A stretch of DNA of 64,000 nucleotides. It comes from Novosphingobium sp. GTDB taxonomy: Bacteria; Pseudomonadota; Alphaproteobacteria; Sphingomonadales; Sphingomonadaceae. Location: the NCBI GenBank assembly GCA_016719755.1, contig JADJYM010000011.1, positions 1 to 64,000 of the forward strand. Direction: 5' to 3'. Position 1 is the stretch's first letter. Each line of letters starts with the position of its first letter. The notes beneath the pieces are model-generated. The model was not told the DNA's origin. It made no database searches and worked only from the letters and a program-made list of their open reading frames with translations. The translations under genes were made by a program, and so were the position numbers. Positions 7,252-62,702 of the stretch are shown one piece after another.

Positions 7252-7398
7252 CTCGTCCGTCCTCGTGATGGCCGGACTCTAATCGCAACTGGAGGAAATT
7301 ACCCGTGGCAGGTCACCAAACCCCAAATTCCATTCGACTTCGGCTGCACGGCAAGCATTGCTGTGTTCACTGAATCGCGGCCCTGAAGAGGCGCCGCA

Positions 7399-7454
7399 GC
7401 CCTGACCGGCGCGCCCGGCAGGGCCGTTGGTGGTGGGAGCAGCAAGGGTGCTGC
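7399..7454 (+). promoter_or_regulatory. Conserved two-hairpin leader of the module, copy 1
   Basis: Hairpin 1 is at 7399-7424 (GCCCTG...CAGGGC enclosing CCGG/CCGG) and hairpin 2 is GCAGCAAGGGTGCTGC at 7439-7454, 20 bases before the DUF3489 start. The same pair is present in copies 2 and 3 with compensating or neutral changes. Role unknown; attenuation, translational control or a recombinase site are possible. Confidence 0.4.
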
Positions 7455-7474
7455 CCCGGACAGGAGAACCACCC

Positions 7475-7771
7475 ATGACCGAACCGACCACCACCAAGCG
7501 TCCCCGTCGCATGGCCCGCGAGGCCAAGTCCGAAGTGCCGAGCGCGCCGTCAGCTGCCAAGCCCCAGTCCAAGGGTGCGCTGGTCGAGGATCTGCTGCAG
7601 CAGAGCGGCGGCGCGGCGATTGAAGACCTCTGCCTGGCCACCGGCTGGCTTCCGCACACGTGCCGGGCGTTCCTGACCGGCCTGCGCAAGAAGGGCAGGC
7701 CGCTCGAACGGAGCAAGCGGGAAGATGGCGTGACCATCTACCGCATCGCGGCAACGCAGGCGGCGGCCTGA
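7475..7771 (+). CDS. DUF3489 domain-containing protein
   Basis: 98 residues. After a basic, low-complexity N terminus (TTKRPRRMAREAK) comes a winged-helix-like DUF3489 domain: LVEDLLQQSGGAAIEDLCLA, then GWLPHTCRAFLTGLRKKG. The start is ATG 7475 with AGGAG 10 bases upstream. The stop overlaps the next ATG (TGATG). The fold suggests DNA binding. In all three copies this gene leads the recombinase operon, so an accessory or regulatory role in recombination is a fair inference. Confidence 0.8.
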   Translation: MTEPTTTKRPRRMAREAKSEVPSAPSAAKPQSKGALVEDLLQQSGGAAIEDLCLATGWLPHTCRAFLTGLRKKGRPLERSKREDGVTIYRIAATQAAA

Positions 7772-8208
7772 TGGGTAGGCAGCGGTACATGAGCCTCGCC
7801 CGGCTGGCTGACCTTTCGGGCGATGCGCTCAAGGCCGAGTGGGCGCGTCGCTACGGCGCGCCTGCACCGGCCTTGTCGCCCGACCTGCTGCGGCTCGGGA
7901 TCGGTTACAAGCTGCAGCAGGCGAAGCTCGGAGGGATCAGCCGGGGAACAAGGACCTTGCTGCGCCAGGCCGCAGCGCGGGGAGGGGAGGGGGAGAAGGC
8001 CAAGCCCCTCCCTCGCAAGCTCACCCCCGGCACCCGGCTGGTGCGCGACTGGCACGGGATCGGTCACACCGTGACCGTGCTTGAGAGTGGCTTCGAATAT
8101 GATGGTCGGCACTGGAAGTCGCTCACCGCCATCGCCAAGGCGATCACCGGCAACCAGTGGAACGGCCCGCTGTTCTTCGGCCTGGCCGAGCGGAAGAAGA
8201 AGCCGTGA
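7771..8208 (+). CDS. DUF2924 domain-containing protein
   Basis: 145 residues. Recognisable DUF2924 features are [23 protein letters not shown], the central [20 protein letters not shown] and the C-terminal [13 protein letters not shown]. The middle part resembles short DNA-binding segments found with phage serine recombinases. It overlaps DUF3489 by 1 base and the recombinase by 4 bases (GTGA), so all three are made from one message. Confidence 0.85.
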
Positions 8209-9843
8209 AGGTGCTGCGCTGCGCGGTCTACACCCGCAAGTCGACCGAGGATGGGCTCGAACAGGAGTTTAACAGCCTCGATGCGCAGCGCGAGGCCTGT
8301 GAGGCCTACATCCTCAGCCAGCGTCATGAAGGCTGGACCCTGGTGCCGGGCAGATACGATGACGGCGGGTTCTCGGGCGGGAACATGGAGCGGCCGGGGA
8401 ATCAAGGCGCTGCTTGCGGAGGTCGACGCCGGCAATGTCGACGTCATCGTTGTCTACAAGGTCGACCGGCTCACCCGCAGCCTTGCTGACTTCGCCAAGA
8501 TCGTCGAGCGGCTCGATGCGAAGCAGGCCAGCTTCGTCTCGGTGACGCAGGCGTTCAACACCACCACCTCGATGGGTCGCCTGACGCTAAACGTCCTCCT
8601 CAGCTTCGCCCAGTTCGAACGCGAGGTCACCGGTGAGCGGATCCGCGACAAGATCGCGGCGTCAAAGAAGAAGGGGCTGTGGATGGGCGGTCCGGTGCCG
8701 CTCGGCTACCAGGTCTTCGAAAGAAAGCTGATCCCGGTGCCCGAGGAAGCCGAGCGGGTGCGCACGATCATGCGGCGCTACCTCGAGGTGCGCAGCGTTC
8801 CCGCGCTGATCGAGATCCTGCGCGCCGAAGGCGTGGTCACCAAGCTCCAGCAGCGCACCAGCGGTCCCCACCGCGGCGGCGTCCCGTTTGCGCGCGGCAG
8901 CCTGTTCCACCTGCTCAAGAACCCGATCTACCGCGGCAAGATCGTCCACAAGGGCAAGGTCTACGACGGCGAGCATCAGCCGATTGTTGATGAGGATTTG
9001 TGGGAGCAGGTGCAGCTGCACCTCGCCGAGAAGGCACCGCCGCGCAGGCGGGCGACCAATGATCCGCAACACGCCATGCTGCGCAACCTGATCATTGACC
9101 CGCAGGGTCGGCCGATGGTCCCGACCTATGGATCGAGCAAGATCAAGCGCTATGCCTATTACGAGACCCGCAAGGACCTTGCCCGGCCCGGGGATCCACC
9201 TGGCCTCCGGTTCCAGCGCCACCATCTCGAGCAGCACCTGATCAGCCACCTCGAGGAACTGCTGAACGATGAGCATGGCCTGCGCCGCCTGTCCGCTATC
9301 GACGAGGCCGCCACGCTTCGAACGTTGTTCGCCAAGGCCCACCTGCTCTCGGTCCAGCTGCGCGAGATCGGCAAGGTGGAAGCTGCCGTGCGATCACTCG
9401 TTGCCGCGATCAGGATACGGCCGGACGGCATGGAGGTGACGCTGGATCCCGGCGCCTTGAACATCGAATCGCAGAAGAAATGGACCTGGACGCTGCCCAC
9501 GCCCACGCGCAGGCCGTTCCGGGAGGCCCGGCTGCGGATCGACGCTGATGCCGGCGATGGATGCGTCCCCGCTGACCTGGTGGCCCTCGTCGCCGATGCG
9601 ATGGTCGCCCAGCGCCTCGTGCTGGCCTCACCCGAACTGAGCCTCGCGCAGCTCGCCAAGCGGGAAGGGCGATGCCGGACCCAGCTCGCAAGGCTGCTGC
9701 GGCTCTCATGGATGAGCCCCCGGATCATCGATGCCATCGCTGATGGAACCCAGCCCAAAGGGCTGACTCGTCGCGCCCTCCTGATCTGCGACATGCCGAT
9801 CGATTGGTCCGAGCAGGAACGGCAGTTCGGGTTCGCGGCCTGA
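8205..9843 (+). pseudogene. Large serine recombinase, frameshifted copy
   Basis: Same protein as 60781-62418 except that GGCCGGGGAATC near 8394-8402 has four G where copy 3 has three. This shifts the frame about 65 codons in, after the catalytic Ser of YTRKSTEDG. Downstream the frame (resolvase core, [14 protein letters not shown], recombinase domain, zinc-ribbon-like region) is open to the stop. One base restores the gene, so an assembly error is possible. Confidence 0.85.
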
Positions 9844-10085
9844 GCGCAAATCAATCCAACAAATCGAGGTGAAGCCGGGTTCTTCGGGGCAGAGAATCCG
9901 GCATATTTTTGGCCTCAGTAGCAGGCCTGCCGAGAGTCTCTGGCTTCACTCTGATTTTGATGTGCCGCCAAACCCCGCGGAACTGCGCCATTCAGCAGGC
10001 GCAGGGTGCCCGCAGGCGAAAATCTGTTACCTCGAAAGACTGATTGGTGCGCGACGCAGTCCGAAGGGGTGTGCGCTCTGCTTCC

Positions 10086-10490: not shown

Positions 10491-10787
10491 ATGGGCTTGT
10501 CTGTTTCGAAAATCGCCAAGCCCGGGCTGAAGATATACGGCTACGCGCTCGGCCCAGATGGGAGAACGAAGCAGTTGACGGTTCTTCGCGAGCTGAAAGC
10601 TTCCACTCTGGAACGCCGCTACAGGGAACTGCGCAAGCAACTGGACGACGCCAATGCATGGCGGCGTTCAGAGCCGGTTCTTACCAATGCCCAGTTTATC
10701 GGTGCTGCTTCGCTGAAAGACCCGATCGGCTTTGGCGAGAAGCCGAAGCTCAAGCGGGGGCGCCCACGGAAAAAACACATACCCTGA
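10491..10787 (+). CDS. Small hypothetical protein with an AT-hook-like tail
   Basis: 98 residues from ATG 10491 (MGLSVSKIAKPGLKIYGYAL). The C terminus KLKRGRPRKKHIP matches the AT-hook core (RGRP in a basic context), so minor-groove DNA binding is plausible. The frame is open upstream to about 10320, so a longer form is possible. No family recognised. It lies just ahead of the second ParB-methyltransferase gene. Confidence 0.45.
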   Translation: MGLSVSKIAKPGLKIYGYALGPDGRTKQLTVLRELKASTLERRYRELRKQLDDANAWRRSEPVLTNAQFIGAASLKDPIGFGEKPKLKRGRPRKKHIP

Positions 10788-10827
10788 TCATTTTCCCTCT
10801 ATTCCCGCCGATTTTTTCGGGTCCAAT

Positions 10828-10863
10828 GGATTTGCCGTCCTTAACAGAAAGGAAGGCAAATCC
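10828..10863 (+). promoter_or_regulatory. Inverted repeat enclosing the ribosome binding site of the next gene
   Basis: GGATTTGCC at 10828-10836 and GGCAAATCC at 10855-10863 are perfect inverted 9-mers. The right arm touches the ATG at 10864, and the loop and arm contain the AGGAAGG ribosome binding site. This is either a translational on/off hairpin or an operator. Confidence 0.5.
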
Positions 10864-12227
10864 ATGAAACTTAATCAGAATCATGCCGAATCCGCCGCCG
10901 TCGGACACAACCGGAGCAGGATCGAACTGGTCCCTGTTGCTGTGCTGAAGGTGCGCGAGGGCGATCGCCGCAGGTACTCGCCCCGCGACATCGAGCTGGC
11001 CCAAGCCGCGCTCCGCCAACTGCCGGTTGGCGTGCCACTGCCGGTAGTGGTCAACGCGGAAGGCGAGATCCTGGTCGGCGGCCTGTTTGTCGCGGCGGCC
11101 CGGAAGCTCGAGATCAAGAATCTCGCTGTTATCCACCACGAGGGGCTGAGCGAGATCGAGGAGAAGCAATACTCGGTCGCGATCAACCAACTGCTATCGA
11201 AGGGAGAGTGGGATCCGGTCGCCCTTGAGGCCTGGGTGCGCGAGTTTGAGGCTGGACTCGAGGACTTCAGTCACTTGGCGCTCGGCTTGACAACGGCGAG
11301 CTCGACAACATCCTTGGTATGGCCGGAGCACTCGCCGGAGGCGGGGGAGATGAAGCTCCCCCGCTGGAGACGAACGCCGTAAGCCGCGTGGGCATGACGT
11401 GGCTGGCAGGACGGCACAGGGTGATGTGCGGTAGCGCGACAAGCCCTGGCGACATGAGCCGCCTCATGGCAGGGCACTTGGCGGCAATGGCGATCACCGA
11501 TCCTCCCTACGGCTGCAAGGTTGACGGATTTGTCTCCAAGAAGGGCAAGCACCGCGATTTCGTCGAAGGGGCGGGTGAGATGCGGCCCGACGAGCTTGGC
11601 GACTTCTTCCTCGGGTTCACGAAGAATCTTGCTGCGAACCTGCAGAAGGGCGCGCTGGTCTACGTTTTCATCGACTGGCGCAGCCTTGATCTCCTGCAGC
11701 GCGCCTGTGAACAGGTATTCGGATCGCTCATCCAGCTTTGCTGCTGGGTGAAGAACCGGGCGGGTATGGGTAGCCTCTACAGGTCGCAGCACGAGCTGGT
11801 GCTGGTCTTCAAGAACCCGGGAGCGAAGCACAGGAACAACGTGAAGCTCGGCATTAATGGTCGGAACCGGTCCAATGTGTGGGACTACCCCAGCGCCGCT
11901 TCGAGCCGGAGCGGCCGCGAGGGGGATATCCTCAAGCACCATCCCACGCCCAAGCCGGTGGAAATGATTGCCGATGCCATGCTCGACTGTACTGAGCATG
12001 GCGACCGGATCATTGACTGTTTCCTGGGATCAGGGACGGCCCTGATCGCGGCCGAACGCACGGGACGGATCTGCCACGGCATGGAGCTTGACCCGCTCTA
12101 CGTCGATGTTGCCATCCGCCGTTGGCAGGCCTGGACCGGTCTCGAGGCAACCGATGCTGAAACGGGCATGACGTTTAATGAACTCGCCGCGCTCGCCCAA
12201 CTTGCGGAGGAATCGCGCGATGACTGA
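10864..12227 (+). pseudogene. ParB-like / DNA methyltransferase, frameshifted
   Basis: Homologous in layout to 1907-3241 but clearly diverged. The first frame (to 11382) holds the ParB-like part (AEGEILVGGLFVAAARKLEI). The second (to 12227) holds motif IV DPPYGCKVDG and the motif I equivalent DCFLGSGTALIAA. The switch is near 11285: restoring one T in CTCGGCTTGACAAC gives a continuous protein of about 454 residues. In motif I the usual F-A-G-S-G is F-L-G-S-G. The stop overlaps the DUF5681 start by 8 bases. Confidence 0.8.
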
Positions 12228-12801
12228 TCGGCGGAAATCGATGGGCGGCGACTACGAGGTCGGCTACGCCAAGCCACCGCGGCACAGCCAGTTCATGCCC
12301 GGCCAGTCAGGGAACAAGGGGCGCCGGAAGAAGCGCCCCGAAACCCAGGCCGAGATCATTGCCCGCGTCCGGGACGAACCTGTAACCGTCAATGGGCGAA
12401 CCATGACCAAGTTCGAACTTGCTGTGCACGCAACGATGAACCAGACGATCAAGGGCGGCAAGCCGCGCGACTTGAAACTGCTGTTCGATTTGCTCGACCA
12501 GCATGGTGCAATGCCAGAGGTGGACCGGGCCGCGGAGGCTCGGGAAGGTGCTGACCTGGCAATCCGGAAGATCTTCACGGCCTTTGATCGCCTGGACGGC
12601 CGCGATCCAGCCGACGGCGACGCGGTGAAGCGGCTGGAAGCGGAAGAACTGCAGCTCGTTCTGGACTGCCCCCACTGTAGCGAGATCTTGCGCGGCCGCT
12701 GGAAAGATCCAGCCTATGTCGCACTGGCTAAGCGCTACGGGCTGACTGGCCTGCACCACCTGGTTCGTGAAACGAAAAAGGAGCCTCCAGGTAAGGACTG
12801 A
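12220..12801 (+). CDS. DUF5681 domain-containing protein
   Basis: 193 residues. The N-terminal hallmark is VGYAKPPRHSQFMPGQSGNK followed by basic KGRRKKRPE. The middle (RTMTKFELAVHATMNQTIKG) matches the family pattern seen in the other copies. It differs from the other two copies in its C-terminal half, which has a CPHC pair (LDCPHCSEIL). It overlaps the methyltransferase and is followed by a strong hairpin. No terminase follows. Confidence 0.8.
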   Translation: MTDRRKSMGGDYEVGYAKPPRHSQFMPGQSGNKGRRKKRPETQAEIIARVRDEPVTVNGRTMTKFELAVHATMNQTIKGGKPRDLKLLFDLLDQHGAMPEVDRAAEAREGADLAIRKIFTAFDRLDGRDPADGDAVKRLEAEELQLVLDCPHCSEILRGRWKDPAYVALAKRYGLTGLHHLVRETKKEPPGKD

Positions 12802-12842: not shown

Positions 12843-13565
12843 TCAATCATGGTATGTCCAGTACTTGATATTGGCGATGTCCTCGAAAATTGCCGCGATG
12901 CCCTGTTCGATCGGGTCAACGGCCTTCAGCTTTCCTTCGGCCCAGTCCAGCCACTCGGAAACCGGTTTTCCTTCGACCAACATGCCACTTGGCTGATCGA
13001 CCTCCTTCAAAGCTTGGAGGAAGCGCCTGGCGGTCCCCACCTCGTCCCATGCCTTCGCAATCTCGGCAAAGCGCCGCCACCGGTTCCTGTCCAGTTTTAG
13101 GCGTTGCCGTTGTTGCTCTTCGCGCCTTGCCTGTTCCTCCCGTTGACGCCGATCTTCTGCCATGATCGGCCCCGCGACCAAGAAGGTCGCAACGATCTCG
13201 GCTAGCCGGTCCTCGATCGGCGCATCATCGCGCTCCAGCCATTCTCGCCGCAAGGATCCCGGGAGATAACGCTTCATGGTGAACAGGAAGCAGCCTGTTG
13301 GCTGCAGTTCCTGCCGCATGCCGCTCTTGTTGCCGCCCCATTTCAATTCCTCGGCAGTCAGCGGACGGCGAACCTGCTTGTACTTTTCCCTTAGCTCGAA
13401 CTCGAGCCTTTCACCCGAGACCTCGGCGTAGAGTTCCCGGCGATCATTTTCGCCAACCCGGGCACCCTGCCTTTCCAGTTCCTTGAACAGCGCATCAAGC
13501 AGGCGGTGCCGCCGCCTTTCCATGGGGGTGAAATCCCTCGGGCGGTAATGGCTGCCCCACCGGTC
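12843..13565 (-). pseudogene. Hypothetical protein, N-terminally truncated
   Basis: The open frame enters from the IS110-tail remnant at about 13568 and runs to a TGA at 12843, about 240 residues. An internal ATG at 13523 would give 226 residues, but the upstream stretch RWGSHYRPRDFTPMERRRHR reads like protein interior, so I infer that the real N terminus was cut off. Residues about 120-160 are very rich in R, E and Q (RRQREEQARREEQQRQRLK), probably a coiled coil. No family recognised. Confidence 0.45.
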
Positions 13566-13568
13566 GCG

Positions 13569-13622
13569 CTTGTCTTCATCAAGGCATCGCGGCCCTCAAA
13601 GGAGCCGCTTCCCAATGTGCTA
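13569..13622 (+). mobile_element. Remnant of an IS110-type element end
   Basis: CTTGTCTTCATCAAGGCA and the following bases up to TTCCC.ATGTGCTA match, in the same position relative to IS3 orfB, the left end of the element at 4784 (read on its minus strand). Only about 55 bases survive. The junction with the transposase fragment is at the same codon as in the intact element. Confidence 0.65.
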
Positions 13623-13996
13623 TGGTCCGGAGTTCATCGCCAATGCCGTGCAAGAGTGGCTGGCGAGGATCGGTGTGAAGACGCTCTACATCACACCCGG
13701 TAGCCCATGGGAGAACGGCTACTGCGAGTCCTTCAACGGCTCGATGCGTGACGAGCTCTTGAACGGGGAGATTTTCTACACCCTGGCCGAGGCCCGGATC
13801 CTGATCGAAGCTTGGCGGCAGCACTACAACACCGTCAGGCCGCACAGCTCGCTAGGATATCGGCCGCCGGCTCCCGAGACGGCGATGCCGCCATGGCTGC
13901 CCTCCGGTTCCGCTTCGCTCCACCTGCGGTCAGCCATGGCGGCGGAGGCAATCTTGCACTAACAATCAATGCGGACCACTGAGTGGGGGCCGGTCA
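13623..13996 (+). pseudogene. IS3-family OrfB 3' fragment with its inverted repeat
   Basis: Encodes the C-terminal part GPEFIANAVQEWLARIGVKT ... ESFNGSMRDELLN ... VRPHSSLGYRPP and stops at 13962. The element end follows, ACCACTGAGTGGGGGCCGGTCA, finishing at 13996. It is a different IS3 member from the one at 4406. The 5' part was removed by the IS110-type insertion and later loss. Confidence 0.75.
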
Positions 13997-14408
13997 GTTT
14001 TTTGGGACCAGGCGGTGACCGATCGCGCAGTGTTCCTGGCTGCGGATCGCTGGACAGGACTGCTGTTCGAACAGCAATGGGTGCTCCTCATGATGGGGAG
14101 CAGTGTTCTGGCTGGTGCTCCCACCACCCAGAACCCGGAGCGTCCGGGAGCATGGCTAGGCGCAGGAAATCAGCATCGTGGAAGACCCTACACATCGCGA
14201 TTGGCTGGCACAAGTCCAGTGGAATCAGGAATTAATTGAGTAAGTGGACTTCGGGTTCGACTATGCCCCGCTCCTCCGCAAGGCCATCGGCGCCTCGGCC
14301 CAGCCCGGCTACCGAGATCAGCAGTGGCTGCTCGACGCGTCGCGCAATTTCGCCCACGCGGGCTGAAGGACGAGCGGCGAACGCCGCCGCCCATTAAACG
14401 GCTCTGCA
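13997..14408 (+). other. Region of broken, unrecognised reading frames
   Basis: Plus-strand frames at 14015-14239 and then, shifted, 14244-14361 (VDFGFDYAPLLRKAIGAS) may be the end of one gene cut by the IS3 remnant and damaged by indels. No start, family or motif can be supported. Confidence 0.25.
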
Positions 14409-14879
14409 TCAGCGGATTTCGAAGACGTGGTACATCGGCCCCGTGGCGGTGCGCTTGCCATTGGCCACGGCAACGATGCGGTTCAACCACAGGTAGTCCG
14501 GATGCTGCGTTGAAAATCGCGGCGTGGTGCGGATGTAGATGTCGCCATATTCGACGACTTCCTTGCGGCGCAGCTTTTCGGCGGCAGCCTCTGAAGTGGC
14601 GGCGGCATAGCCCTGATAGATCATCGCGATCATCGCGCCGTCGTGAGTGCGAAGCGAGGTTCGCACGTCGATGAGCATGGTGCCATCCGAACGCCAGATC
14701 ACCCAGTCGGCCCCGCCGCCCAGAACTTCGCCGCGCATGCGTTTGCCTTCAAAGGTGCCGCCGCGCACCGGATAGATGCCGAGGTTGCCCTCGCCCCCGA
14801 TCTGCTGGGCCTGATCGTATGCCACGTCTAGCCGCATCACAAACAGCGGGGCATGGACCAGGGTTTCGATCGTGCTCAT
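14409..14879 (-). CDS. DUF3237 domain-containing protein
   Basis: 156 residues; matches the DUF3237 (UPF0311-like) pattern: GGTFEGKRMRGEVLGGGADW, then IDVRTSLRTHDGAMIAMIYQ, and a C-terminal YLWLNRIVAVANGKR. These small beta-rich proteins are frequent in catabolic clusters with monooxygenases and NTF2-like proteins. The reaction is not established. It is divergent from the NTF2-like gene at 15095, so they share a control region (14880-15094). Confidence 0.8.
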   Translation of the reverse strand: MSTIETLVHAPLFVMRLDVAYDQAQQIGGEGNLGIYPVRGGTFEGKRMRGEVLGGGADWVIWRSDGTMLIDVRTSLRTHDGAMIAMIYQGYAAATSEAAAEKLRRKEVVEYGDIYIRTTPRFSTQHPDYLWLNRIVAVANGKRTATGPMYHVFEIR

Positions 14880-15094
14880 GGTTCTGACATCCCCTATTCT
14901 GTTGTGCCGTTTAGGTAACCAGCTCGACTCGCCGATGCACCGCGCGCCGGGCGACGACCTGCAGAATCACATCCGTAAATTTTCCCCGCACCGGATGAAA
15001 GCCAAGGTGGAGATGCGGACTTGGTGATAGGCCGGTGCCTGATAAGCAATAATGCGATAGCGCGCGGCGCGGCGCCATGAAAGCGGAGTGGGAG

Positions 15095-15568
15095 ATGACA
15101 GAGATCGAGCGGCTGCTGATCGAGGGCGCGTGGCTGCGCCTGATGAACGACTACAACATCCATCTCCACAATGCCGATGACGACAAGTTCGTCTCCACCT
15201 TCTCGCCCGATGCGGTCTGGCGGCGTTCCCTCCCGGAGCCAGTGCTGGAGTGGACTGGCCACGATGCGCTGCGGGCTTCGCTCGATACCTTGATCCGGCA
15301 GTCCCCCCGCCTGCGCCGCCATCTGCTAACCAAGGCCTGCGTAAACGTCATCTCCGCCTACGAAGCCGAGGGTTTCTGCATCAACCTGTGCGTCTTTGGC
15401 CCGAAGGCGGACCTGCCGGTGCCGATGGGCGGCATCGAAAGGATCGCCGAATACCGGGATCGCTACCGTTGGTTCGCGGACGGGTGGAAGATCGTCGGGC
15501 CGGAACTGACGCGGCTGATCGACCTTAAGACGGTGCCGATCGAGAACCGCGGCGCCAACGCCGACTGA
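15095..15568 (+). CDS. NTF2/SnoaL-like protein
   Basis: 157 residues. The cone-shaped NTF2 fold is indicated by IERLLIEGAWLRLMNDYNIH, a central SPDAVWRRSLPEP, and the terminal IAEYRDRYRWFADGWKI. Members act as small cyclases, isomerases, hydratases or hydroxysteroid-pathway enzymes. Start chosen at ATG 15095 with GGAGTGGGAG just upstream; the frame also has ATG 15077. It ends 12 bases before the MFS start, so they form an operon. Confidence 0.75.
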   Translation: MTEIERLLIEGAWLRLMNDYNIHLHNADDDKFVSTFSPDAVWRRSLPEPVLEWTGHDALRASLDTLIRQSPRLRRHLLTKACVNVISAYEAEGFCINLCVFGPKADLPVPMGGIERIAEYRDRYRWFADGWKIVGPELTRLIDLKTVPIENRGANAD

Positions 15569-15619
15569 AGGGCTGAAACTATGGCCATCGAGATGCCCGG
15601 CTCGTTCGAAGCTTCCCCT

Positions 15620-15627
15620 GCTCGTCC
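15620..15627. repeat. 8-bp target site duplication of IS256 copy 2 (partner 17052-17059)
   Basis: GCTCGTCC flanks both ends. Removing one copy plus the IS restores the MFS frame exactly, which supports these limits. Confidence 0.9.
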
Positions 15628-19465: not shown

Positions 19466-19466
19466 C

Positions 19467-48974: not shown

Positions 48975-48990
48975 TAACAATATGTTATTT

Positions 48991-52399: not shown

Positions 52400-52404
52400 A
52401 TGCC

Positions 52405-52653: not shown

Positions 52654-52668
52654 TCGCTGAAGACCACG

Positions 52669-53295
52669 TTATCCGTCACGTCCGGAGAGCAGGACGGCCA
52701 ATTCAGTGCGTGTCGAAATATTAAGCTTCTTGAATATTTTATGCAGGTGCACTTTGACCGTCCCTTCCGTGATGCCCATGGACTGTCCGATGTCGCGGTT
52801 ACGCATTCCCGTTGCGACCGCTCTGGCGATCCGCAATTCCTGGTCGGATAGTGCATCAAGCCCGGAATCGCTTGGGCTCCCATTGAGCAAGATGGCAAAG
52901 GCCTTTTCCATCAGGTCCTTGGAAATGAATTTCTCGCCAGTCGTAACTGTCTCGATTGCATCGCGCAGGACGGATTCGGGTTCGTACTTGAACACGATGC
53001 CGTCGACCCTGGCCTTCATCAGGGCAATCAGGTCGTCGTTGGTCAGCTCGGCTGTAAGCGCGATGACCGGTATCCGGGAATTCGCCTCGCGTAGCCTTGC
53101 GAGTACTTCGGCGCCGCCCATGGTTTTCATTCGCACGTCCAGCAGCAGCAAGTCAGGCTGCTCGTCCCGCACCGCAACAAGCGCCAGCTCGCCCGAGGCA
53201 ACGCTCGCGACAACTTCATGGCCCATCGCAAGCAGCGCCGAGTTCAGGCCGCTTCTGAAAAAGGCGTGATCGTCTGCGATTGCTATTCTGGTCAT
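52669..53295 (-). CDS. NarL/LuxR-type response regulator
   Basis: 208 residues. Receiver domain: acidic pair in IAIADDHAFF, phospho-acceptor Asp in LLLLDVRMKTMGG, Thr in ALTAEL and Lys in VFKYEP. C-terminal LuxR HTH: LSDQELRIARAVATGMRNRD, IGQSMGITEGTVKVHLHKIF. It overlaps the start of the kinase gene transcribed ahead of it by 4 bases. It converges on the Tad operon, making control of that locus plausible. Confidence 0.9.
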   Translation of the reverse strand: MTRIAIADDHAFFRSGLNSALLAMGHEVVASVASGELALVAVRDEQPDLLLLDVRMKTMGGAEVLARLREANSRIPVIALTAELTNDDLIALMKARVDGIVFKYEPESVLRDAIETVTTGEKFISKDLMEKAFAILLNGSPSDSGLDALSDQELRIARAVATGMRNRDIGQSMGITEGTVKVHLHKIFKKLNISTRTELAVLLSGRDG

Positions 53296-54977: not shown

Positions 54978-55114
54978 CGGGGCCTCAATCCGACGCATTC
55001 AGCCCCGGGTCAACCCACTCGAAACAGGCCGGTTTCCAACTTATGTCGCACGTTAGACATTCGTATATAACTTAAAGGTTATTTTGCTGCGACGCCTCGA
55101 TTCGGAAGTGGGCA

Positions 55115-55696
55115 ATGAAGATCTATCACCTCGCCTTGATCCTGATTGTGCTTGCAGCGCTTCTTGGACTCATTGCCAGAGAACTGGGCAAGGCCCTGGG
55201 CTCGGGCAGATCCCATACCGATGGACGGCAATCTGGCTCGTTGACCTGGCTGTCAGGGAAACTGGCGAATGAGGAACCTTCCCTGACCGAGCAACCCGCT
55301 GCCATTGTGCAGCGCACCCGCCAGAGAACCTTAAAGAGCCACAGTGCCGGAGGGGGGGACCCCAACCTGGCGCAGCAGCTTCTCGAGAGAGACATTTACG
55401 GCCAGCTGGAAATCAGTCTCGAGCGTGCGTTCGAATCCTACATCAGCGGCCGGACCACCCTTGGCCGGTACCGGAAGACTATCATGGCCGAACGCATGGC
55501 TATGATCAGGCATCTGGATGAAATCAACGCGGGCCGGTCGACGGAGGATGAGGATCGATCCCAAGCAGAGTCTGCCGAGGCGGCCCTGGCAACGATCGAT
55601 TGGTGTTTGCGCTGGGCAGATGACATAGAGCGCCAGAAGCGAACCGATTGCGACAGCGCAAGATCTGCCGCCGCAAAATTGCAGGGTGCGGCCTGA
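55115..55696 (+). CDS. Hypothetical membrane-anchored protein
   Basis: 193 residues. An N-terminal helix (YHLALILIVLAALLGLIARE) anchors it. The rest is soluble, helical and acidic (RAFESYISGRTTLGRYRKTI ... EINAGRSTEDEDRSQAESAE), ending with paired helices. It is divergent from the kinase gene with a promoter-like AT-rich spacer (55020-55110). No family recognised. Confidence 0.55.
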   Translation: MKIYHLALILIVLAALLGLIARELGKALGSGRSHTDGRQSGSLTWLSGKLANEEPSLTEQPAAIVQRTRQRTLKSHSAGGGDPNLAQQLLERDIYGQLEISLERAFESYISGRTTLGRYRKTIMAERMAMIRHLDEINAGRSTEDEDRSQAESAEAALATIDWCLRWADDIERQKRTDCDSARSAAAKLQGAA

Positions 55697-55858
55697 TCAT
55701 CATCGCGCAGCGCCGCGAAATAGGCCTTGGGGCAAAAGGTTCCGGATTTGTCGGCTACAGACCCCGCCTGTAAAATCATTCTGTTGTGATCGGGCGCTAG
55801 CTATGGTTGCTGCCGTTACAAATCACCGATGGAATTTCGGGTTTGGGTGGTCGCTGCG

Positions 55859-56149
55859 ATGCAGGAATTTGAAGAGAAACCGGCAAAGACGATCGCCCTC
55901 GATGCCGGGGTCTGCTGCCAGTGTCGCTATTGGGAGCAAGGCCAGGCGAAGTCCGAGATGGGGCTATGCCATCGCCGTGCACCGTTGCCATCCGGATGGC
56001 CTGCTACAGGTGGACAGGAATGGTGTGGTGACTTCAAGGCATCGGGTGCCACCGCCGCCAAGCGCATCTTCGCATTGTCCAACCTGACATTGGCAGTCTT
56101 GTTTCTGCTGTTCCTGATTTCCACGAGCGTGAGCCAGCTCGTCGGCTGA
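55859..56149 (+). CDS. Small cysteine-rich protein with C-terminal membrane anchor
   Basis: 96 residues from ATG 55859 (ATG 55829 also in frame). The soluble part has a ligand-like set, CCQCRYW ... GLCHRRAP ... WPATGGQEWCGDFK, in which four Cys and one His could hold a metal or cluster. A hydrophobic tail, LTLAVLFLLFLISTSVSQLV, follows. Related small proteins are scattered in alphaproteobacteria; function unknown. Confidence 0.55.
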   Translation: MQEFEEKPAKTIALDAGVCCQCRYWEQGQAKSEMGLCHRRAPLPSGWPATGGQEWCGDFKASGATAAKRIFALSNLTLAVLFLLFLISTSVSQLVG

Positions 56150-56255
56150 TCCAATTCGCGTTTGCGTATAGGGGACTTTACGAATAGCATTTCGCGCCAT
56201 CAATTAGACAGTCCTTGTATATGCACTTCTACTTTCGCCGCAGGAGGCCCGCGCC

Positions 56256-56450
56256 ATGCTTGGGACTGGTGACCGAGATGAGGTGTCAAAGGTGACCGTG
56301 AACTCTGCGAACGAAGCCCGAAACCTGCTTGAGCAAGCCATAGCCGCACTGCTCATCGATGGCCACAATGTCGCTGCTGCGTATGCGCAGATGGCACTCG
56401 ACGTCTACATTGAAGCTATATCCGATTCCGACCTAACTTTCGATGTATGA
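56256..56450 (+). CDS. Small helical hypothetical protein
   Basis: 64 residues (ANEARNLLEQAIAALLIDGH, then NVAAAYAQMALDVYIEAISD), a TPR-like helical pair. AGGAGG lies 8 bases before the ATG. No known function; it sits alone between the cysteine-rich protein and the LuxR-type gene. Confidence 0.5.
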   Translation: MLGTGDRDEVSKVTVNSANEARNLLEQAIAALLIDGHNVAAAYAQMALDVYIEAISDSDLTFDV

Positions 56451-56516
56451 GGTCATTCACATTCTAGCGGATCAGAGGTATCGCTCGCTTCGGTTCGGAG
56501 CAAACAGGGCGCAAAG

Positions 56517-57095
56517 ATGCAGGCGCTGCATGACTACGAGGGTGCGGATCGCACCAAGTTGCTGACGCCCAGGCAGGCTCAAGTTCTTGAGCTTGTAGCA
56601 AAACGGCGATCCTTGAAGCAGATCGCTGCGGAGCTTGGCATCTCCGAATCAGCCGTCAACCAGCACATCAAAGCTCTGAAGGGCATTCTGGCGGTTAACA
56701 GCCTTCCGGAATTGGCCGAAGCGCATCGACATTTCTCCCAGGGTGGAAACACCCAAGGGTGCAGAAAAACTGCATGCACAAAATCCGGAGTGCCGCAGGC
56801 ATCCGAAATCGGACAGTCACCGGATCCGGATGGCCTCGAGCAAGTCGTAAGCTTCCACGATGCAATTGCCTACCGTGTAGGCGTGCCGTGGGAGGTCGGC
56901 GATGAGCTCGGGGTGGTCCCGAAGGTGCTCAACAGTACAAATGCAAAGCTCGCTCGCACGGCATATATCTTGGGTATAGCCGTAGGTATGTTCATTTTGA
57001 TCCTGACAGGACTTGGGGTCGCACAAGGCATATCAGCGATGCTTCATCACGAGGCCGGACCTTCGACCCGAACTGCTGAAGCGCCCACCGAATGA
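56517..57095 (+). CDS. Membrane-anchored LuxR-type HTH protein
   Basis: 192 residues. The N-terminal LuxR HTH has LTPRQAQVLELVAKRRSLKQ and IAAELGISESAVNQHIKALK. There is no receiver or autoinducer domain. A linker follows, and one membrane helix near the C terminus (TAYILGIAVGMFILILTGLG, about residues 152-171). A DNA-binding domain tethered to the membrane would resemble CadC/ToxR-type one-component regulators but with a LuxR HTH. Confidence 0.75.
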   Translation: MQALHDYEGADRTKLLTPRQAQVLELVAKRRSLKQIAAELGISESAVNQHIKALKGILAVNSLPELAEAHRHFSQGGNTQGCRKTACTKSGVPQASEIGQSPDPDGLEQVVSFHDAIAYRVGVPWEVGDELGVVPKVLNSTNAKLARTAYILGIAVGMFILILTGLGVAQGISAMLHHEAGPSTRTAEAPTE

Positions 57096-57118
57096 GCATG
57101 GTGGGCAGGAGAGACATC

Positions 57119-57442
57119 ATGTCGCTTGACCGTTCTGCCGCTACTGCCCGTATTGCCCGCCAATTGAAGCATGCCGAGAAGCAGGCCGACCAGGCCTTGT
57201 TGGCACTGTCCGAACTGCTGTCGACCATGCTCCAGGCGCGCGCCTCGACTGATGTTGTACCCCATACAGGCCAGGCCGCCATCATGCGTCTGATCGAAGC
57301 CCAACGCTCATTTGTCGGCGGCAGCAATGATCTCTTCCGGGTTCACGACGTGATGTCGTCGATTGGCCGCGAAATGGGCGTACTTGATGAGCCGAACTCG
57401 ACGCCCGAGTTTGGTTCAGACAGTACAAAGATCGCCGCGTGA
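57119..57442 (+). CDS. Hypothetical protein downstream of the membrane LuxR
   Basis: 107 residues from ATG 57119, chosen for AGGAGAG 8 bases upstream; ATG 57092 overlaps the previous stop and is also in frame. Helical (ARIARQLKHAEKQADQALLA, LSELLSTMLQARASTDVVPH). No motif recognised. Its tight spacing suggests co-transcription with the LuxR-type gene. Confidence 0.55.
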   Translation: MSLDRSAATARIARQLKHAEKQADQALLALSELLSTMLQARASTDVVPHTGQAAIMRLIEAQRSFVGGSNDLFRVHDVMSSIGREMGVLDEPNSTPEFGSDSTKIAA

Positions 57443-57481
57443 ACTTGACATAGGCATGCGATCTGGCGGACCGAGCAACAT

Positions 57482-57949
57482 ATGCTGTGGACGGTCTGGC
57501 AACTGAAGTCGCAAGCGCAATGGGTAGCGCTTTCTGCATTCATCGCGCTTGCGCTTTGGCGTGGAGCCGGCCCAGAACGCCGGATCGCATGCGTCTTCAT
57601 CTTCATGTTCGTCGCCGACCGGATATACCACGCATTGTTTGGAAACGGTCGACTTCTACTGAGCGCCGATCTGGGCCATGTCCTGATTGATGCGGCTGCA
57701 CTCGCCGGATTTGTCTGGATAGCTCTGCGGGCAAACAGGGTTTACCCCTTATGGCTGGCCAGCTTTCAACTGATGACACTCGTTTCACACGTCGTGCGCG
57801 CCCTCAGTCCGTCGGTTGCGACGGGGGCTTACGCCATTCTGATCTTTGCACCATCTTACCTCGAAGTCATAGTGTTCGGTCTAGGGTTGTTTCTTCACCT
57901 CCGAAGACAAGCGAAGTTCGGCCCATATCGGTCCTGGCGGAGCTCCTAA
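57482..57949 (+). CDS. Small polytopic membrane protein
   Basis: 155 residues with four or five hydrophobic helices (WVALSAFIALALWRG, IACVFIFMFVADRIYHALFG, HVLIDAAALAGFVWIALRA, the YPLWLASFQLMTLV region and YAILIFAPSYLEVIVFGLGL). Basic C terminus. No family recognised. The downstream RadC-like frame overlaps its end. Confidence 0.65.
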   Translation: MLWTVWQLKSQAQWVALSAFIALALWRGAGPERRIACVFIFMFVADRIYHALFGNGRLLLSADLGHVLIDAAALAGFVWIALRANRVYPLWLASFQLMTLVSHVVRALSPSVATGAYAILIFAPSYLEVIVFGLGLFLHLRRQAKFGPYRSWRSS

Positions 57950-58518
57950 GTCCGTTCGCTGGAGCCGAAGCGGATTGCCTTGCGCCGATTCTCTTACGCC
58001 AGTTCGGAACGATCGATCGCATGCTCGCAGCTAGCGACCGCCAGATTCTCGAAGCCTGTGGTCATCTCAATGAAGTGGGCTCGATGATCGTCGGCGCTCG
58101 TGCCCTCGTTCTCGCCTCACTGCAGGAAGCGGTTACCAGGACGAAAGTTGATCCGGATGATGCTAACTTCACCAATTACCTGTCCTTGAAGCTGGGTGGC
58201 CGGCCGCACGAAGAGCTTCACGCGATATTCGTGGATCATGCAGGTGGTTTCATAGCCGAGGAACTGATCTCAATCGGCGGGACCGGGAGGGTGGACGCCA
58301 AGGTGTCTGTGATCATCCGTAGGTCAATCGAACTTGCCGCATCGGGGTTCTACTTGGTGCACAACCATCCTTCCAAGTGCCCCAATCCAAGCCCTGACGA
58401 TGTCAGGGCTACCAGGCAAATATCCTCGGTCGCACGGGCATTGGAAATTGACCTCATCGATCATTTCGTGATCGCGGGCCGTAGGGTGGTCAGCATGCGT
58501 GGACTTGATTTGCTATGA
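57751..58518 (+). CDS. RadC-like JAB-domain protein
   Basis: The C-terminal MPN/JAB domain shows the expected metal site: EELHAIFVDHAG, then LVHNHPSKCPNPSPDD. The N-terminal part from LAELLSPFAGAEADCLAPIL to RQILEACGHLNEVGSMIVGA looks like the helical RadC N-domain. The start is unclear: ATG 57751 is the only ATG but overlaps the upstream gene by 200 bases, and homologous sequence seems to begin near 57925. The function of RadC-like proteins is unsettled; they are common on mobile islands. Confidence 0.7.
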   Translation: MAGQLSTDDTRFTRRARPQSVGCDGGLRHSDLCTILPRSHSVRSRVVSSPPKTSEVRPISVLAELLSPFAGAEADCLAPILLRQFGTIDRMLAASDRQILEACGHLNEVGSMIVGARALVLASLQEAVTRTKVDPDDANFTNYLSLKLGGRPHEELHAIFVDHAGGFIAEELISIGGTGRVDAKVSVIIRRSIELAASGFYLVHNHPSKCPNPSPDDVRATRQISSVARALEIDLIDHFVIAGRRVVSMRGLDLL

Positions 58519-59741: not shown

Positions 59742-59894
59742 CCGATTCCGGACAGTCCCAAACGTCCAACAGAGCGGACATTAGACTGGCGAATTCAGGC
59801 GAGCGCGCCTAAAAATGCCGACCAGGCGTCCATGGTCTTCTGCGACCCGGATCATGGGCGCCTGACCTGTTAAGCGCGAAGCGCGCTTCGATCC
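59742..59894. other. Junction sequence between IS5 remnant and recombinase module
   Basis: About 150 bases continuing the open frame with PPIPDSPKRPTERTLDWRIQ, not recognisable as transposase. Probably other mobile-element debris. Confidence 0.3.
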
Positions 59895-59977
59895 CCAAAC
59901 CCCAAATTCCATTCGACTTCGGCTGCACGGCAAGCATTGCTGTGTTCACTGAATCGCGGCCCTGATGAGGCGCCGCA

Positions 59978-60033
59978 GCCCTGACCGGCGTGACCGGCAG
60001 GGCCGTGGGTGGTGGGAGCAGCAAGGGTGCTGC
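59978..60033 (+). promoter_or_regulatory. Conserved two-hairpin leader, copy 3
   Basis: GCCCTGACCGG...CCGGCAGGGC (59978-60003) and GCAGCAAGGGTGCTGC (60018-60033), 20 bases before the DUF3489 start. Confidence 0.4.
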
Positions 60034-60053
60034 CCCGGACAGGAGAACCACCC

Positions 60054-60350
60054 ATGACCGAAGAGACCACCACCAAGCGTCCCCGCCGCATGGCCCGCGA
60101 GGCCAAGCCCAAGGCGCCGAGCGCGCCGCCAGCTGCCAAGCCCCAGTCCAAGGGTGCGCTGGTCGAGGATCTGCTGCAGCAGAGCGGCGGCGCATCGCTC
60201 GATGATCTTTGTCAGGCCACCGGCTGGCTTCCGCACACGTGTCGGGCGTTCCTCACCGGCCTGCGCAAGAAGGGCAGGACGGTCGAGCGCAGCAAGCGGG
60301 AAGATGGCGTGACTATCTATCGAATCGCGGCAACGCAGGCGGCGGCCTGA
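60054..60350 (+). CDS. DUF3489 domain-containing protein
   Basis: 98 residues: basic N-terminal tail (TTKRPRRMAREAKPKAPSAP), then LVEDLLQQSGGASLDDLCQA and GWLPHTCRAFLTGLRKKGRT with a wing-like REDGVTIYRI. First gene of the intact recombinase operon. The tail and winged-helix-like core suggest a DNA-binding accessory factor. Confidence 0.82.
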   Translation: MTEETTTKRPRRMAREAKPKAPSAPPAAKPQSKGALVEDLLQQSGGASLDDLCQATGWLPHTCRAFLTGLRKKGRTVERSKREDGVTIYRIAATQAAA

Positions 60351-60784
60351 TGGGCAGGCAGCGCTACCTGAGCCTCGCCCGGCTGACCGACCTTTCGGGC
60401 GAGGAGCTCAAGGCCGAGTGGGCGCGCCGCTACGGCGCGCCCGCACCGGCCTTGTCGCCCGACCTGCTGCGGCTCGGGATCGGTTACAAGCTGCAGGAGG
60501 CGAAGCTCGGAGGGATCAGCCGGGGAACAAGGACCTTGCTGCGCCAGGCCGCAGCGCGGGGAGGGAGGGGGAGAAGGCCAGCCCTCCCTCGCAAGCTCAC
60601 CCCCGGCACCCGGCTGGTGCGCGACTGGCACGGGATCGGTCACACCGTGACCGTGCTTGAGAGTGGCTTCGAATATGATGGTCGGCACTGGAAGTCGCTC
60701 ACCGCCATCGCCAAGGCCATCACCGGCAACCAGTGGAACGGCCCGCTGTTCTTCGGCCTGGCCGAGCGGAAGAAGAAGCCGTGA
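60350..60784 (+). CDS. DUF2924 domain-containing protein
   Basis: 144 residues, one fewer than copy 1 because a codon is absent in the GGEGEKA linker. Conserved [40 protein letters not shown] and [17 protein letters not shown]. Coupled by overlap to both neighbours. Confidence 0.86.
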   Translation: MGRQRYLSLARLTDLSGEELKAEWARRYGAPAPALSPDLLRLGIGYKLQEAKLGGISRGTRTLLRQAAARGGRGRRPALPRKLTPGTRLVRDWHGIGHTVTVLESGFEYDGRHWKSLTAIAKAITGNQWNGPLFFGLAERKKKP

Positions 60785-62418
60785 AGGTGCTGCGCTGCGC
60801 GGTCTACACCCGCAAGTCGACCGAGGATGGGCTCGAACAGGAGTTTAACAGCCTCGATGCGCAGCGCGAGGCCTGTGAGGCCTACATCCTCAGCCAGCGT
60901 CATGAAGGCTGGACCCTGGTGCCGGGCAGATACGATGACGGCGGGTTCTCGGGCGGGAACATGGAGCGGCCGGGAATCAAGGCGCTGCTTGCGGAGGTCG
61001 ACGCCGGCAATGTCGACGTCATCGTTGTCTACAAGGTCGACCGGCTCACCCGCAGCCTTGCTGACTTCGCCAAGATTGTTGAACGCCTCGATGCGAAGGA
61101 AGCCAGCTTCGTCTCGGTGACGCAGGCGTTCAACACCACGACCAGCATGGGTCGCCTGACACTCAACGTGCTCCTGTCCTTTGCCCAGTTCGAACGCGAG
61201 GTCACCGGCGAGCGGATCCGCGACAAGATCGCGGCGTCAAAGAAGAAGGGGCTGTGGATGGGCGGGCCGGTACCGCTCGGTTACCAGGTCATTGAACGCA
61301 AGCTGGTCCCGGTGCCCGAGGAAGCCGAACGAGTGCGCACGATCATGCAGCGCTACCTCGAAGTTAAAAACGTTCCGTGGCTGATCGATATCTTGCGGAC
61401 GGAAGGGATCGTCACCAAGGTCCAGCACCGAACAAGCGGCCCGCATCGCGGCGGGATTCCGTTCGCACGCGGCAGCCTGTTCCACCTGCTCAAGAACCCC
61501 ATCTATCGCGGCAAGATCGTCCACAAGGGCAAGGTCTACGATGGCGAGCACGAAGCGATCGTCGCGGGGCAGCTCTGGGATGCCGTACAGGCCCAGCTCA
61601 AGGAGAAGGCCCCGCCGCGCAGGCGGGCGACCAATGAGCCGCAGCAAGCCTTGCTGCGCGGGCTCATTACCGACCCGCATGGCCGGCCGATGGTCCCGAC
61701 CTATGGCTCGAGCAAAATCAAGCGCTATGCCTATTACGAGACCCGCAAAGACCTTGCCCGGCCCGGCGATCCACCAGGCCTCAGGTTCCAGCGCGGCCAT
61801 CTCGAGCAGCACCTGATCGGCCACCTCGAGGAACTGCTGAACGATGAACATGGCCTGCGCCGCCTGTACGGCAGCGACGAGGCCGCCACGCTTCGAACGC
61901 TGTTCGCCAAGGCACACCTGCACTCAGTCCAGCTGCGCGAGATCGGCAAGGGGGAAGCCGCCGTGCGGTCGCTCGTTGCCGCGATCAGGATCAGGCCTGA
62001 CTGCATGGAGGTCACGCTGGATCCCGGTGCCTTGGACATCGAATCGCAGAACAAATGGACCTGGACGCTGCCCACGCCCACCCGCAGGCCGTTCCGGGAG
62101 GCCCGGCTGCGGATCGACGCTGATGCCGGCGATGGATGCGTGCCCACTGACCTGTTGGCCCTCGTCGCCGATGCGATGGCCGCTCAGCGCCTCGTGCTCG
62201 CCTCACCCGAACTCAGCCTGACCCAGCTCGCCAAGCGGGAAGGGCGGTGCCGGACCCAGCTGGCCAGGCTGCTGCGGCTCTCGTGGTTGAGCCCCCGGAT
62301 CATCGAGGCGATCGCCGAAGGATCGCAGCCCAAAGGGGCTGACCGGCGCGCCCTCCTGATCTGGGACATGCCGATCGACTGGTCCGAGCAGGAACGGCAG
62401 TTCGGGTTCGCCGCCTGA
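60781..62418 (+). CDS. Large serine recombinase
   Basis: 545 residues with a GTG start inside the DUF2924 stop. The N-terminal resolvase domain has the nucleophile in [60 protein letters not shown] and FAQFEREVTGERIRDKIAAS. The recombinase domain (residues about 190-310) includes GSLFHLLKNPIYRGKIVHKG. A zinc-ribbon-like region, usual in this class, follows but with few cysteines here. It catalyses site-specific integration or inversion. Placement beside the tRNA suggests it moves this module or a larger island. Confidence 0.9.
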   Translation: MKVLRCAVYTRKSTEDGLEQEFNSLDAQREACEAYILSQRHEGWTLVPGRYDDGGFSGGNMERPGIKALLAEVDAGNVDVIVVYKVDRLTRSLADFAKIVERLDAKEASFVSVTQAFNTTTSMGRLTLNVLLSFAQFEREVTGERIRDKIAASKKKGLWMGGPVPLGYQVIERKLVPVPEEAERVRTIMQRYLEVKNVPWLIDILRTEGIVTKVQHRTSGPHRGGIPFARGSLFHLLKNPIYRGKIVHKGKVYDGEHEAIVAGQLWDAVQAQLKEKAPPRRRATNEPQQALLRGLITDPHGRPMVPTYGSSKIKRYAYYETRKDLARPGDPPGLRFQRGHLEQHLIGHLEELLNDEHGLRRLYGSDEAATLRTLFAKAHLHSVQLREIGKGEAAVRSLVAAIRIRPDCMEVTLDPGALDIESQNKWTWTLPTPTRRPFREARLRIDADAGDGCVPTDLLALVADAMAAQRLVLASPELSLTQLAKREGRCRTQLARLLRLSWLSPRIIEAIAEGSQPKGADRRALLIWDMPIDWSEQERQFGFAA

Positions 62419-62615
62419 GCGCCAATCAATCCAACAAATCGAGGTGAAGCCGGGTTCTCGCGGGCAGAGAATCCGGCATATTTTTGGCCTCAGCGCCGCC
62501 AGCGCAGAGTCTCTGGCTTCACCTTGAGTTTGATGTGCCGCCAGAACCCGCGGAACTGCGCCATTCCTGGCTGCAGGTGCCCTGAGGCGAAAATCTGTTA
62601 CCTCGAAAGACTGAT

Positions 62616-62702
62616 TGGTGCGGTCGAGAAGACTCGAACTTCCACGGGCTTTCGCCCACAACGACCTCAACGTTGCGCGTCTACCAGTTCCGCCACGACC
62701 GC
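62616..62702 (-). tRNA. tRNA-Leu (anticodon GAG)
   Basis: Read on the minus strand: the acceptor stem GCGGTCG/CGACCGC, a leucine-type D arm, the anticodon arm CAACG-TTGAGGT-CGTTG with anticodon GAG, a class II variable arm (GGGCGAAAGCCC), the T arm GGAAG-TTCGAGT-CTTCT, discriminator A and an encoded CCA. The length, 87 bases with CCA, is normal for a class II tRNA. Confidence 0.96.

Follow-up and report, generated by a model that had tools for sequence, protein, structure and literature searches.

The 64,000-nt stretch analyzed here (hereafter, the window), positions 1–64,000 of contig JADJYM010000011.1 of a Novosphingobium sp. (GCA_016719755.1), carries three copies of a 2.7-kb unit encoding a DUF3489 protein, a DUF2924 protein, and a large serine recombinase. 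This recurrence raises the question of what has moved: the unit itself, the DNA between its copies, or a larger element of which the unit forms a part. In our judgment, it is very probable that the unit is the right-end integration cassette of cargo-carrying, tRNA-targeted islands, whose serine integrase joins the attachment site of the island (attP) to the 3' end of a tRNA gene. What moves is most likely the tRNA-targeted island as a whole, 20–40 kb in length.

The repeated unit and its limits

In a BLASTN comparison of the window with itself, 7313–10051 and 59892–62622 share 91.7% identity over 2741 bp, while the middle copy consists of 35653–36221 and 36220–36298, where a DUF2924 gene truncated near its start is joined to the middle of the recombinase. 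An earlier note on this DNA had placed the copies at 7316, 35656 (deleted), and 59895; the comparison confirms all three, with left limits at 7313, 35653, and 59892. The overlapping three-gene order that it described likewise stands: adjacent genes share a few bases at their junctions (TGATG, GTGA), and Pfam identifies DUF3489 (PF11994, E 3.4e-17), DUF2924 (PF11149, E 8.8e-41), and a recombinase with Resolvase (PF00239, E 6.5e-38) followed by Recombinase (PF07508, E 1.8e-13). The recombinase of copy 1 is frameshifted (8205–8405 and 8368–9840 lie in different frames) and that of copy 2 is deleted, leaving an intact gene only in copy 3. The features of the three copies and of the right end are as follows (tRNA genes here and throughout were called with ARAGORN):

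7313..7474, + strand: leader of copy 1, with a conserved hairpin over the DUF3489 ribosome-binding site (BLASTN, motif)
7475..7771, + strand: DUF3489 of copy 1, predicted winged helix (Pfam, AlphaFold2, Foldseek)
7771..8208, + strand: DUF2924 of copy 1 (Pfam)
8205..9843, + strand: large serine recombinase of copy 1, frameshift near 8368–8405 (reading frames)
35653..36298, + strand: copy 2, with leader, DUF3489 (35807–36103), and the start of DUF2924 joined through a deletion to a piece of the recombinase (BLASTN, Pfam)
59892..60056, + strand: leader hairpin of copy 3 (BLASTN, fold, motif)
60054..60350, + strand: DUF3489 of copy 3
60350..60784, + strand: DUF2924 of copy 3
60781..62418, + strand: large serine recombinase of copy 3, the sole intact one of the three (Pfam)
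62419..62622, unstranded: right arm of island 3, ending in GACTGAT (62609–62615) and the core TGGTGCG (62616–62622)
62616..62702, − strand: tRNA-Leu(GAG), the target gene, whose 3' end is the island boundary (ARAGORN)

The two common limits of the unit differ in kind. On the right, copy 3 ends (62622) exactly on the last bases of the tRNA-Leu(GAG) 3' end, and this limit is an element end. The common left limit is not, because 7313 and 59892 abut different insertion-sequence remnants: one at 6362–7288, with Pfam rve and HTH_21 matches and read as IS3-type, and one at 59193–59873, IS5-type by eye. The right limit is an attachment site at a tRNA gene, and insertion sequences set the left one. Three copies within 55 kb, two of them nearly equal in length and with a recombinase on board, might suggest a small autonomous transposable element copied to three places. 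Such an element would begin and end at constant points of its own, whereas the copies here are bounded on the left by insertion sequences and stop on the right at a tRNA 3' end or at an attP-like junction. Moreover, in relatives, the module keeps a fixed place, 191–683 bp from a tRNA gene in 59 of 80 genome loci (the best 80 of 458 stretches related to the copy-3 recombinase in a scan of genome contigs), and in five examples it stands at the end of islands of 20–40 kb. We therefore consider this explanation highly improbable and reject an autonomous 2.7-kb transposon, its left limit being set by insertion sequences.

Other right ends of the same genome extend this picture. A fourth copy, at C5:26766, also ends on tRNA-Leu(GAG); its leader and DUF3489 have given way to 2.6 kb of DNA whose reading frames look IS21-type and helicase-like by eye. 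Two right-end fragments lie on contig C1. The sequence GACTGATTGGTGCG occurs exactly in five right ends of the genome, with one-mismatch copies at three places (C4, C6, and C12). Three of the five exact right ends, copy 1 included, run into CGACGCAGT instead of a tRNA; copy 1 and C1:174658 are alike for ~1.7 kb across the junction, at 86% identity.

The right arm spans ~200 bp between the recombinase stop codon and the core and contains an inverted repeat, GGTGAAGCC..GGCTTCAC, ~80 bp long, which occupies the same place in copy 1 (9868–9949) and copy 3 (62443–62522) and has similar counterparts in the other right ends compared. The surroundings of tRNA-Leu(GAG) recur on contig C5, where 28.6–42.9 kb (28600–42852) matches 62.6–76.9 kb of C11 at 96.7% identity over 14 kb including the tRNA gene, and the C5 stretch carries a different recombinase (83%) and different flanking genes than C11. 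This second tRNA-Leu(GAG) likely stems either from another strain assembled together with the first or from a duplication. Two further loci of the genome, L017 (C15) and L018 (C14), have diverged or decayed recombinases, one of them broken, without a DUF2924 hit; both face tRNA-Val(TAC) at 525–526 bp, which suggests a further target in this genome.

Facing tRNA genes and the putative attachment site

Downstream DNA of 800 bp or more was available for 70 genome loci. In 56 of them, a facing tRNA gene lies within 700 bp downstream of the recombinase, and none (0/70) has a same-strand tRNA there; only 2 of 1351 control windows of 700 bp, taken elsewhere in the same loci, contained a tRNA gene. 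Over all 80 loci, the 59 facing tRNAs (median distance 212 bp) comprise 37 Leu, 8 Ser, 5 Phe, 3 Arg, 2 Met, 2 Tyr, 1 Thr, and 1 Gln, giving eight tRNA kinds among the targets. On the recombinase tree, the target amino acid changes 14 times, compared with at least 30 times in 100 shuffles (79 recombinases). This is a quick tree with 25 of 76 inner branches open, built from 79 of 192 collected recombinases that have a known target or are of special interest; judged from it, the tRNA target is inherited along the tree but switches.

The gene order is equally constant. Presence of the small genes was counted only in loci with at least 1 kb of upstream DNA (72 of the genome loci and 72 of 76 viral loci, the latter recovered by scanning viral contigs with the copy-3 recombinase). 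DUF2924 lies directly upstream of the recombinase in 70/72 genome loci and in 70/72 viral loci, while DUF3489 lies upstream in 61/72 genome loci versus 25/72 viral loci. Absence of the small genes from close recombinase relatives, the outcome that the earlier note had named as fatal to its proposal, is thus not what the genome loci present. Its picture of two small proteins tied to a large serine recombinase survives as a conserved operon and integration module, in which both small proteins are putative DNA-binding proteins; the data do not support the 2.7-kb unit itself as the mobile unit.

We also surveyed 115 genomes of the class, including that of the window, which were not selected on the recombinase. 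DUF2924 occurs at 40 places in 23 genomes, and 26 of the 30 loci read have a recombinase directly downstream. DUF3489 occurs at 26 places in 14 genomes, 17 of them before a DUF2924-recombinase pair (copy 2 fragments counted) and nine not, and it was seen in 12 of 26 such pairs within the stretch read, some stretches ending at contig ends. DUF3489 is therefore optional, and DUF2924 is the near-constant partner. Downstream DNA was covered for 33 of the 40 DUF2924 places, with a recombinase in 29 of the 33 and at least 800 bp beyond it in 26 of the 29; a facing tRNA gene lies within 1300 bp in 13 of these 26 (11 Ser, 2 Gln). Targeting of tRNA genes is the rule near the query and applies to about half of the loci across the class.

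The junction at the right end of copy 1 displays both arms of the putative attachment site. This end is an attP-like junction, GACTG..TGGTGCGCGACGCAGTC, in which the left arm opens the next island; the joined arms at 10038–10061 form an inverted repeat GACTG..CAGTC about a 7-bp core. Serine integrases typically use a compact attP whose arms form an inverted repeat and whose very short core also occurs in attB. Alignment of 38 right ends at tRNA-Leu yielded the right-arm consensus GACTGTtTGGTGCG, with ACTG near the core in 32, and 19 aligned left ends yielded the left-arm consensus TGGTGCGCGACGCAGTCcGgAGCGAACc. Further attP-like junctions were found at L026 (two), L038, L041, and L050.

With the gene order, conserved ends, tRNA boundary, and tandem junctions in view, we infer both an integration reaction and an order of arrival. 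The attP of the island would consist of the right arm ..GACTGttTGGTGCG and the left arm CGACGCAGTCcggAGCGAAC.., and the recombinase would link it with the tRNA-Leu(GAG) 3' end, with crossover through the 7-bp core TGGTGCG, which holds the CCA end, so that the integrase gene would end up facing the tRNA. A new island would enter at the boundary between the right arm of an older island and the tRNA, leaving an attP-like junction between the two islands and placing the newest integrase beside the tRNA; a tandem array would thus grow at its tRNA end. Such entry would make the island next to the tRNA the newest, and among the three copies in the window, only the recombinase at that position is intact. 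In Altererythrobacter xiamenensis, both tandem recombinases read open, and intactness does not mark arrival order there.

Apparent tandem islands and their left ends

Left operons at 1883–4122, 10732–12801, and 36400–38209, taken together with right cassettes at 7313, 35653, and 59892, indicate three islands in tandem. Accordingly divided, the window appears to comprise one island before 10045, a second from 10045 to ~36.3 kb, and a third from ~36.3 to 62.6 kb, with the following features:

1883..4122, + strand: left operon of island 1, with ParB_N (below the Pfam cut-off) and N6_N4_Mtase at 1883–3241 and DUF5681 at 3238–4122 (Pfam, profile)
10038..10061, unstranded: attP-like tandem junction GACTGATTGGTGCGCGACGCAGTC, with the island 1 right arm, core TGGTGCG (10045–10051), and island 2 left arm
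10732..12801, + strand: left operon of island 2, with a broken ParB-like/N6_N4_Mtase gene at 10732–12227 (first part without a Pfam hit) and DUF5681 at 12178–12801 (Pfam, profile)
12843..35494, unstranded: island 2 cargo, with a short-chain dehydrogenase/reductase, TonB receptor, AMP-ligase, acyl-CoA dehydrogenase, and two flavin oxidoreductases (Pfam), and insertion-sequence copies (by eye)
36400..38209, + strand: left-operon remnant of island 3, with DUF5681 at 36400–36792 and the terminase large subunit in two frames at 36789–38209 (Pfam, PHROG, profile)
39264..58518, unstranded: island 3 cargo, with a large protein bearing a CarboxypepD_reg stretch, Tad- and TadE-like proteins, and a histidine kinase (Pfam)

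The junction between islands 2 and 3 is gone, removed by the same deletion event that brought copy 2 up against the DUF5681 region. The Pfam scan of the window's cargo covered 10 proteins. A tRNA-Ser(CGA) gene lies within the island 2 cargo at 22349–22426. Two mobile-element-like copies, at 39–1454 and 15628–17051, are 98.9% identical and resemble a mutator-type insertion sequence by eye; the copy at the contig start may hide the left end of island 1.

Complete islands were recovered in four other genomes. The 20.4-kb island of A. xiamenensis (in tandem with L050), the 31.2-kb island of an uncultured Erythrobacter (L051), the 35.9-kb island of Novosphingobium sp. NDB2Meth1 (L035), and the 39.7-kb island of Sphingorhabdus soli (L097, at tRNA-Phe) each run from left arm to tRNA. 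A second S. soli island (L070, at tRNA-Leu) measures 33.8 kb to the tRNA, with its right arm ending on a tRNA-like remnant 1.9 kb short of it. The left operon is present in all five, their cargo varies (by eye), and each finishes with the DUF3489-DUF2924-recombinase module. The attachment core is present at both ends in each, with a tRNA core in four and a tRNA-like remnant in one, while islands 1 and 3 of the window lack their left cores. The left-arm pattern TGGTGCGNNNNGCAGTC, sought in the genomes behind 20 loci (19 of them covered), matched 16 times, in 11 of the 19 other genomes, 15 of the 16 matches having an extended left end by eye. Pfam recognized N6_N4_Mtase, ParB_N, DUF5681, and Terminase_6C in the left-operon proteins submitted. 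A profile search found ParB-methylase and DUF5681 genes after the left arm in 12 of the 15 extended left ends, with profile seeds that included the window's island 1 protein and 5 of the 12 positive left arms.

The earlier note had proposed that recombination between the copies could move or delete 25–50 kb blocks. We read the ~26-kb blocks between copies as the islands themselves, each with its own copy at the tRNA-side end, and we therefore prefer the acquisition and loss of entire islands at a single tRNA gene, which fits the data better; recombination between direct copies as the main mover is not needed and was rejected.

The left operon bears on a second alternative, namely that the units are the integrase ends of decayed prophages and the cargo is passenger DNA that remained once the structural genes had been lost. 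Its genes are phage-like (ParB-methylase, phrog_498; DUF5681; terminase large subunit, phrog_38), and the DUF2924-recombinase pair is shared with Wolbachia phage WO and Acidithiobacillus phage AcaML1. Against this, the five islands in four genomes share one layout and differ in cargo, and capsid, tail, or lysis genes were not recognized in them by eye, the cargo having had no profile scan. This common layout points to a form that is being maintained more than to separate events of decay, and we regard prophage decay as possible but doubtful. The same left-end genes raise a third alternative, in which the islands are phage satellites that bring their own terminase and are packaged in the particles of a helper. 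DUF5681 and terminase genes do stand at the left end, and no transfer genes were recognized by eye (nor was any relaxase or type IV secretion gene noticed by eye in the five islands, no profile search aimed at them having been made). However, the terminase large subunit was found at only 2 of 15 left ends, using a profile built from two sequences, plus island 3 of the window (in two frames), and no helper is known. Islands of 20–40 kb are also large for a satellite, and we judge this alternative unlikely.

Several results weigh against tRNA-targeted islands as the mobile units. No tRNA gene lies within 700 bp in 14 of the 70 genome loci. Six of these are explained: by a tRNA broken by Ns (L032), attP-like tandem junctions (L041 and L050), or a tRNA-like remnant (L064, L070, and L073); eight remain unexplained. 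Of the 33 viral loci with sufficient downstream DNA, only three have a facing tRNA and one a tRNA on the other strand, and in the class survey, 12 of 26 loci have no nearby tRNA, with one more only at 1728 bp. Six of the 38 tRNA-Leu right arms lack ACTG near the core. On the left side, the reversed control pattern of TGGTGCGNNNNGCAGTC gave 7 matches, 8 of the 19 genomes had no left-arm match, and the left operon is absent at 3 of 15 left arms, with 5 of the 12 positives having supplied profile seeds. Within the window, the left attachment site of island 1 was not found, and that of island 3 is missing through the deletion. A search for an empty site was also negative: the left flank of one island did not lie beside tRNA-Leu in 19 relatives' loci (33 relatives matched), and a flank comparison with 53 tRNA-Leu loci, nine of them with a recombinase, gave no occupied/empty pair. 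The flank query of the Phe island returned mostly weak matches, in an apparent TonB-receptor gene (by eye).

Associated proteins and known systems

AlphaFold2 predicts a winged helix for DUF3489 (pLDDT 81); Foldseek retrieved MarR/ArsR-like folds with a best E of 0.011 and none at 0.001. A separate search gave a weak MecI match (E 0.0045). The DUF2924 model (pLDDT 86, pTM 0.44) is helical in its N-terminal half and rich in beta strands in its C-terminal half. It found no match among PDB structures (best E 0.3), nor did its sequence in the PDB up to E 1, and for this reason the likeness of DUF2924 to the RAMA domain is taken from the statement in the accessible part of PMC11342252 that RAMA partly matches DUF2924. 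According to the available portion of PMC11037411, RAMA is a suggested reader of adenine methylation, a preference that was not confirmed in one protein. We consider DUF2924 a probable partner of the integrase, in choosing the target or setting directionality, and DUF3489 a probable regulator of the operon. We would give little credence to a more elaborate scheme, in which DUF2924 would be the obligate specificity or directionality partner of a tRNA-dedicated integrase clade, its RAMA-like C-terminal part sensing marks of the island's N6/N4 methylase, and the methylation state steering integration, excision, or tandem accretion. A divergent small reading frame upstream of DUF3489 was matched on the minus strand in 8 of 83 upstream stretches, weakly in some, and is not a constant part.

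The "structured leader" of the earlier note holds in part. A hairpin over the DUF3489 ribosome-binding site is common to 30 sequences (27 loci and the three window copies), retained from motif matches in 34 of 159 stretches after four were dropped by eye. In the hairpin, 89.6% of cells are paired versus 32–59% when it is slid; among 500 shuffles, the observed percentage paired was reached in none and the covariation score in six. Covariation is modest, because shuffles often reach the count of pairs changed on both sides (344/500) and that of further pair types (474/500). Folds of single copies are weak (z −2.55, −0.48, and 0.06), and a strong structured RNA was rejected in favor of a conserved hairpin.

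The recombinase matches the PHROG integrase family phrog_95 and has the Resolvase-then-Recombinase order of large serine recombinases. The zinc ribbon PF13408 was not listed for it at E 1e-3 and was detected in the WO and AcaML1 recombinases; this domain is not seen in every large serine recombinase, and we do not regard its absence as decisive.

Since tRNA genes are the commonest island targets and serine integrases serve as genome-engineering tools, the family is of wider interest. If the proposal is true, it provides a serine-integrase clade with readable attachment sites at eight tRNA kinds, in which one can ask how a target switches, and it gives DUF2924 and DUF3489 a testable function. 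It also offers an explanation for the build-up of catabolic and surface cargo beside one tRNA gene in Sphingomonadales. In the literature searched on tRNA-targeting serine integrases, with subscription papers and supplements outside the search, we found no description of this island family. Among the papers covered, one mentions DUF3489 and three mention DUF2924. The word "tRNA" is absent from the main text of PMC10083194. As far as the accessible text of PMC10654092 goes, Mycobacterium abscessus has sixteen tRNA/tmRNA sites for tyrosine integrases and none stated for serine integrases.

The DUF2924 query matched nine phage records, of WO, AcaML1, and two fecal contigs. In Wolbachia prophage WO, DUF2924 (gp30) immediately precedes the serine recombinase gp31, at 34% identity over the full length; unlike the islands, WO has structural genes (annotated P2-like GPW and GPJ), no DUF3489 hit, and a zinc ribbon in gp31. 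In AcaML1, DUF2924 (gp4) likewise stands before the recombinase (50% identity over residues 5–354), whose profile is, however, spread over three overlapping genes. A subgroup around AcaML1 (L146–L183 on viral contigs, plus L242) similarly has the recombinase profile over two or three successive frames, in parts 1–404 and 409–543 and often a second 440–544 piece; from these frames, it looks like a naturally split serine integrase.

Paracoccus phage vB_PamS_Pami6 is, like the islands, an alphaproteobacterial element with a serine recombinase reported at a tRNA gene, tRNA-Met(CAT), and in the accessible part of PMC6536676, it is the only serine-recombinase phage with a predicted site; Pami6 is an active phage and not among the nine records matched by DUF2924. 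Serine recombinase integration at tRNA-Leu (eight mycobacterial elements) and tRNA-Ser (phage phiRSM1) is presented as rare in the portion of PMC3218068 available, whose description mentions no DUF2924; these are actinobacterial conjugative elements (Mycobacterium AICEs) or a filamentous phage. Tyrosine-integrase islands, as collected by Islander, are also integrase islands bounded by a tRNA gene, and in the accessible text of PMC4383910 (2015 issue), tRNA-gene islands are served by tyrosine integrases only. Their recombinase is unrelated, and their attP carries a tRNA-gene fragment, in contrast to the 7-bp shared core here. Set beside these systems, the island family is most likely a variant of serine-integrase islands.

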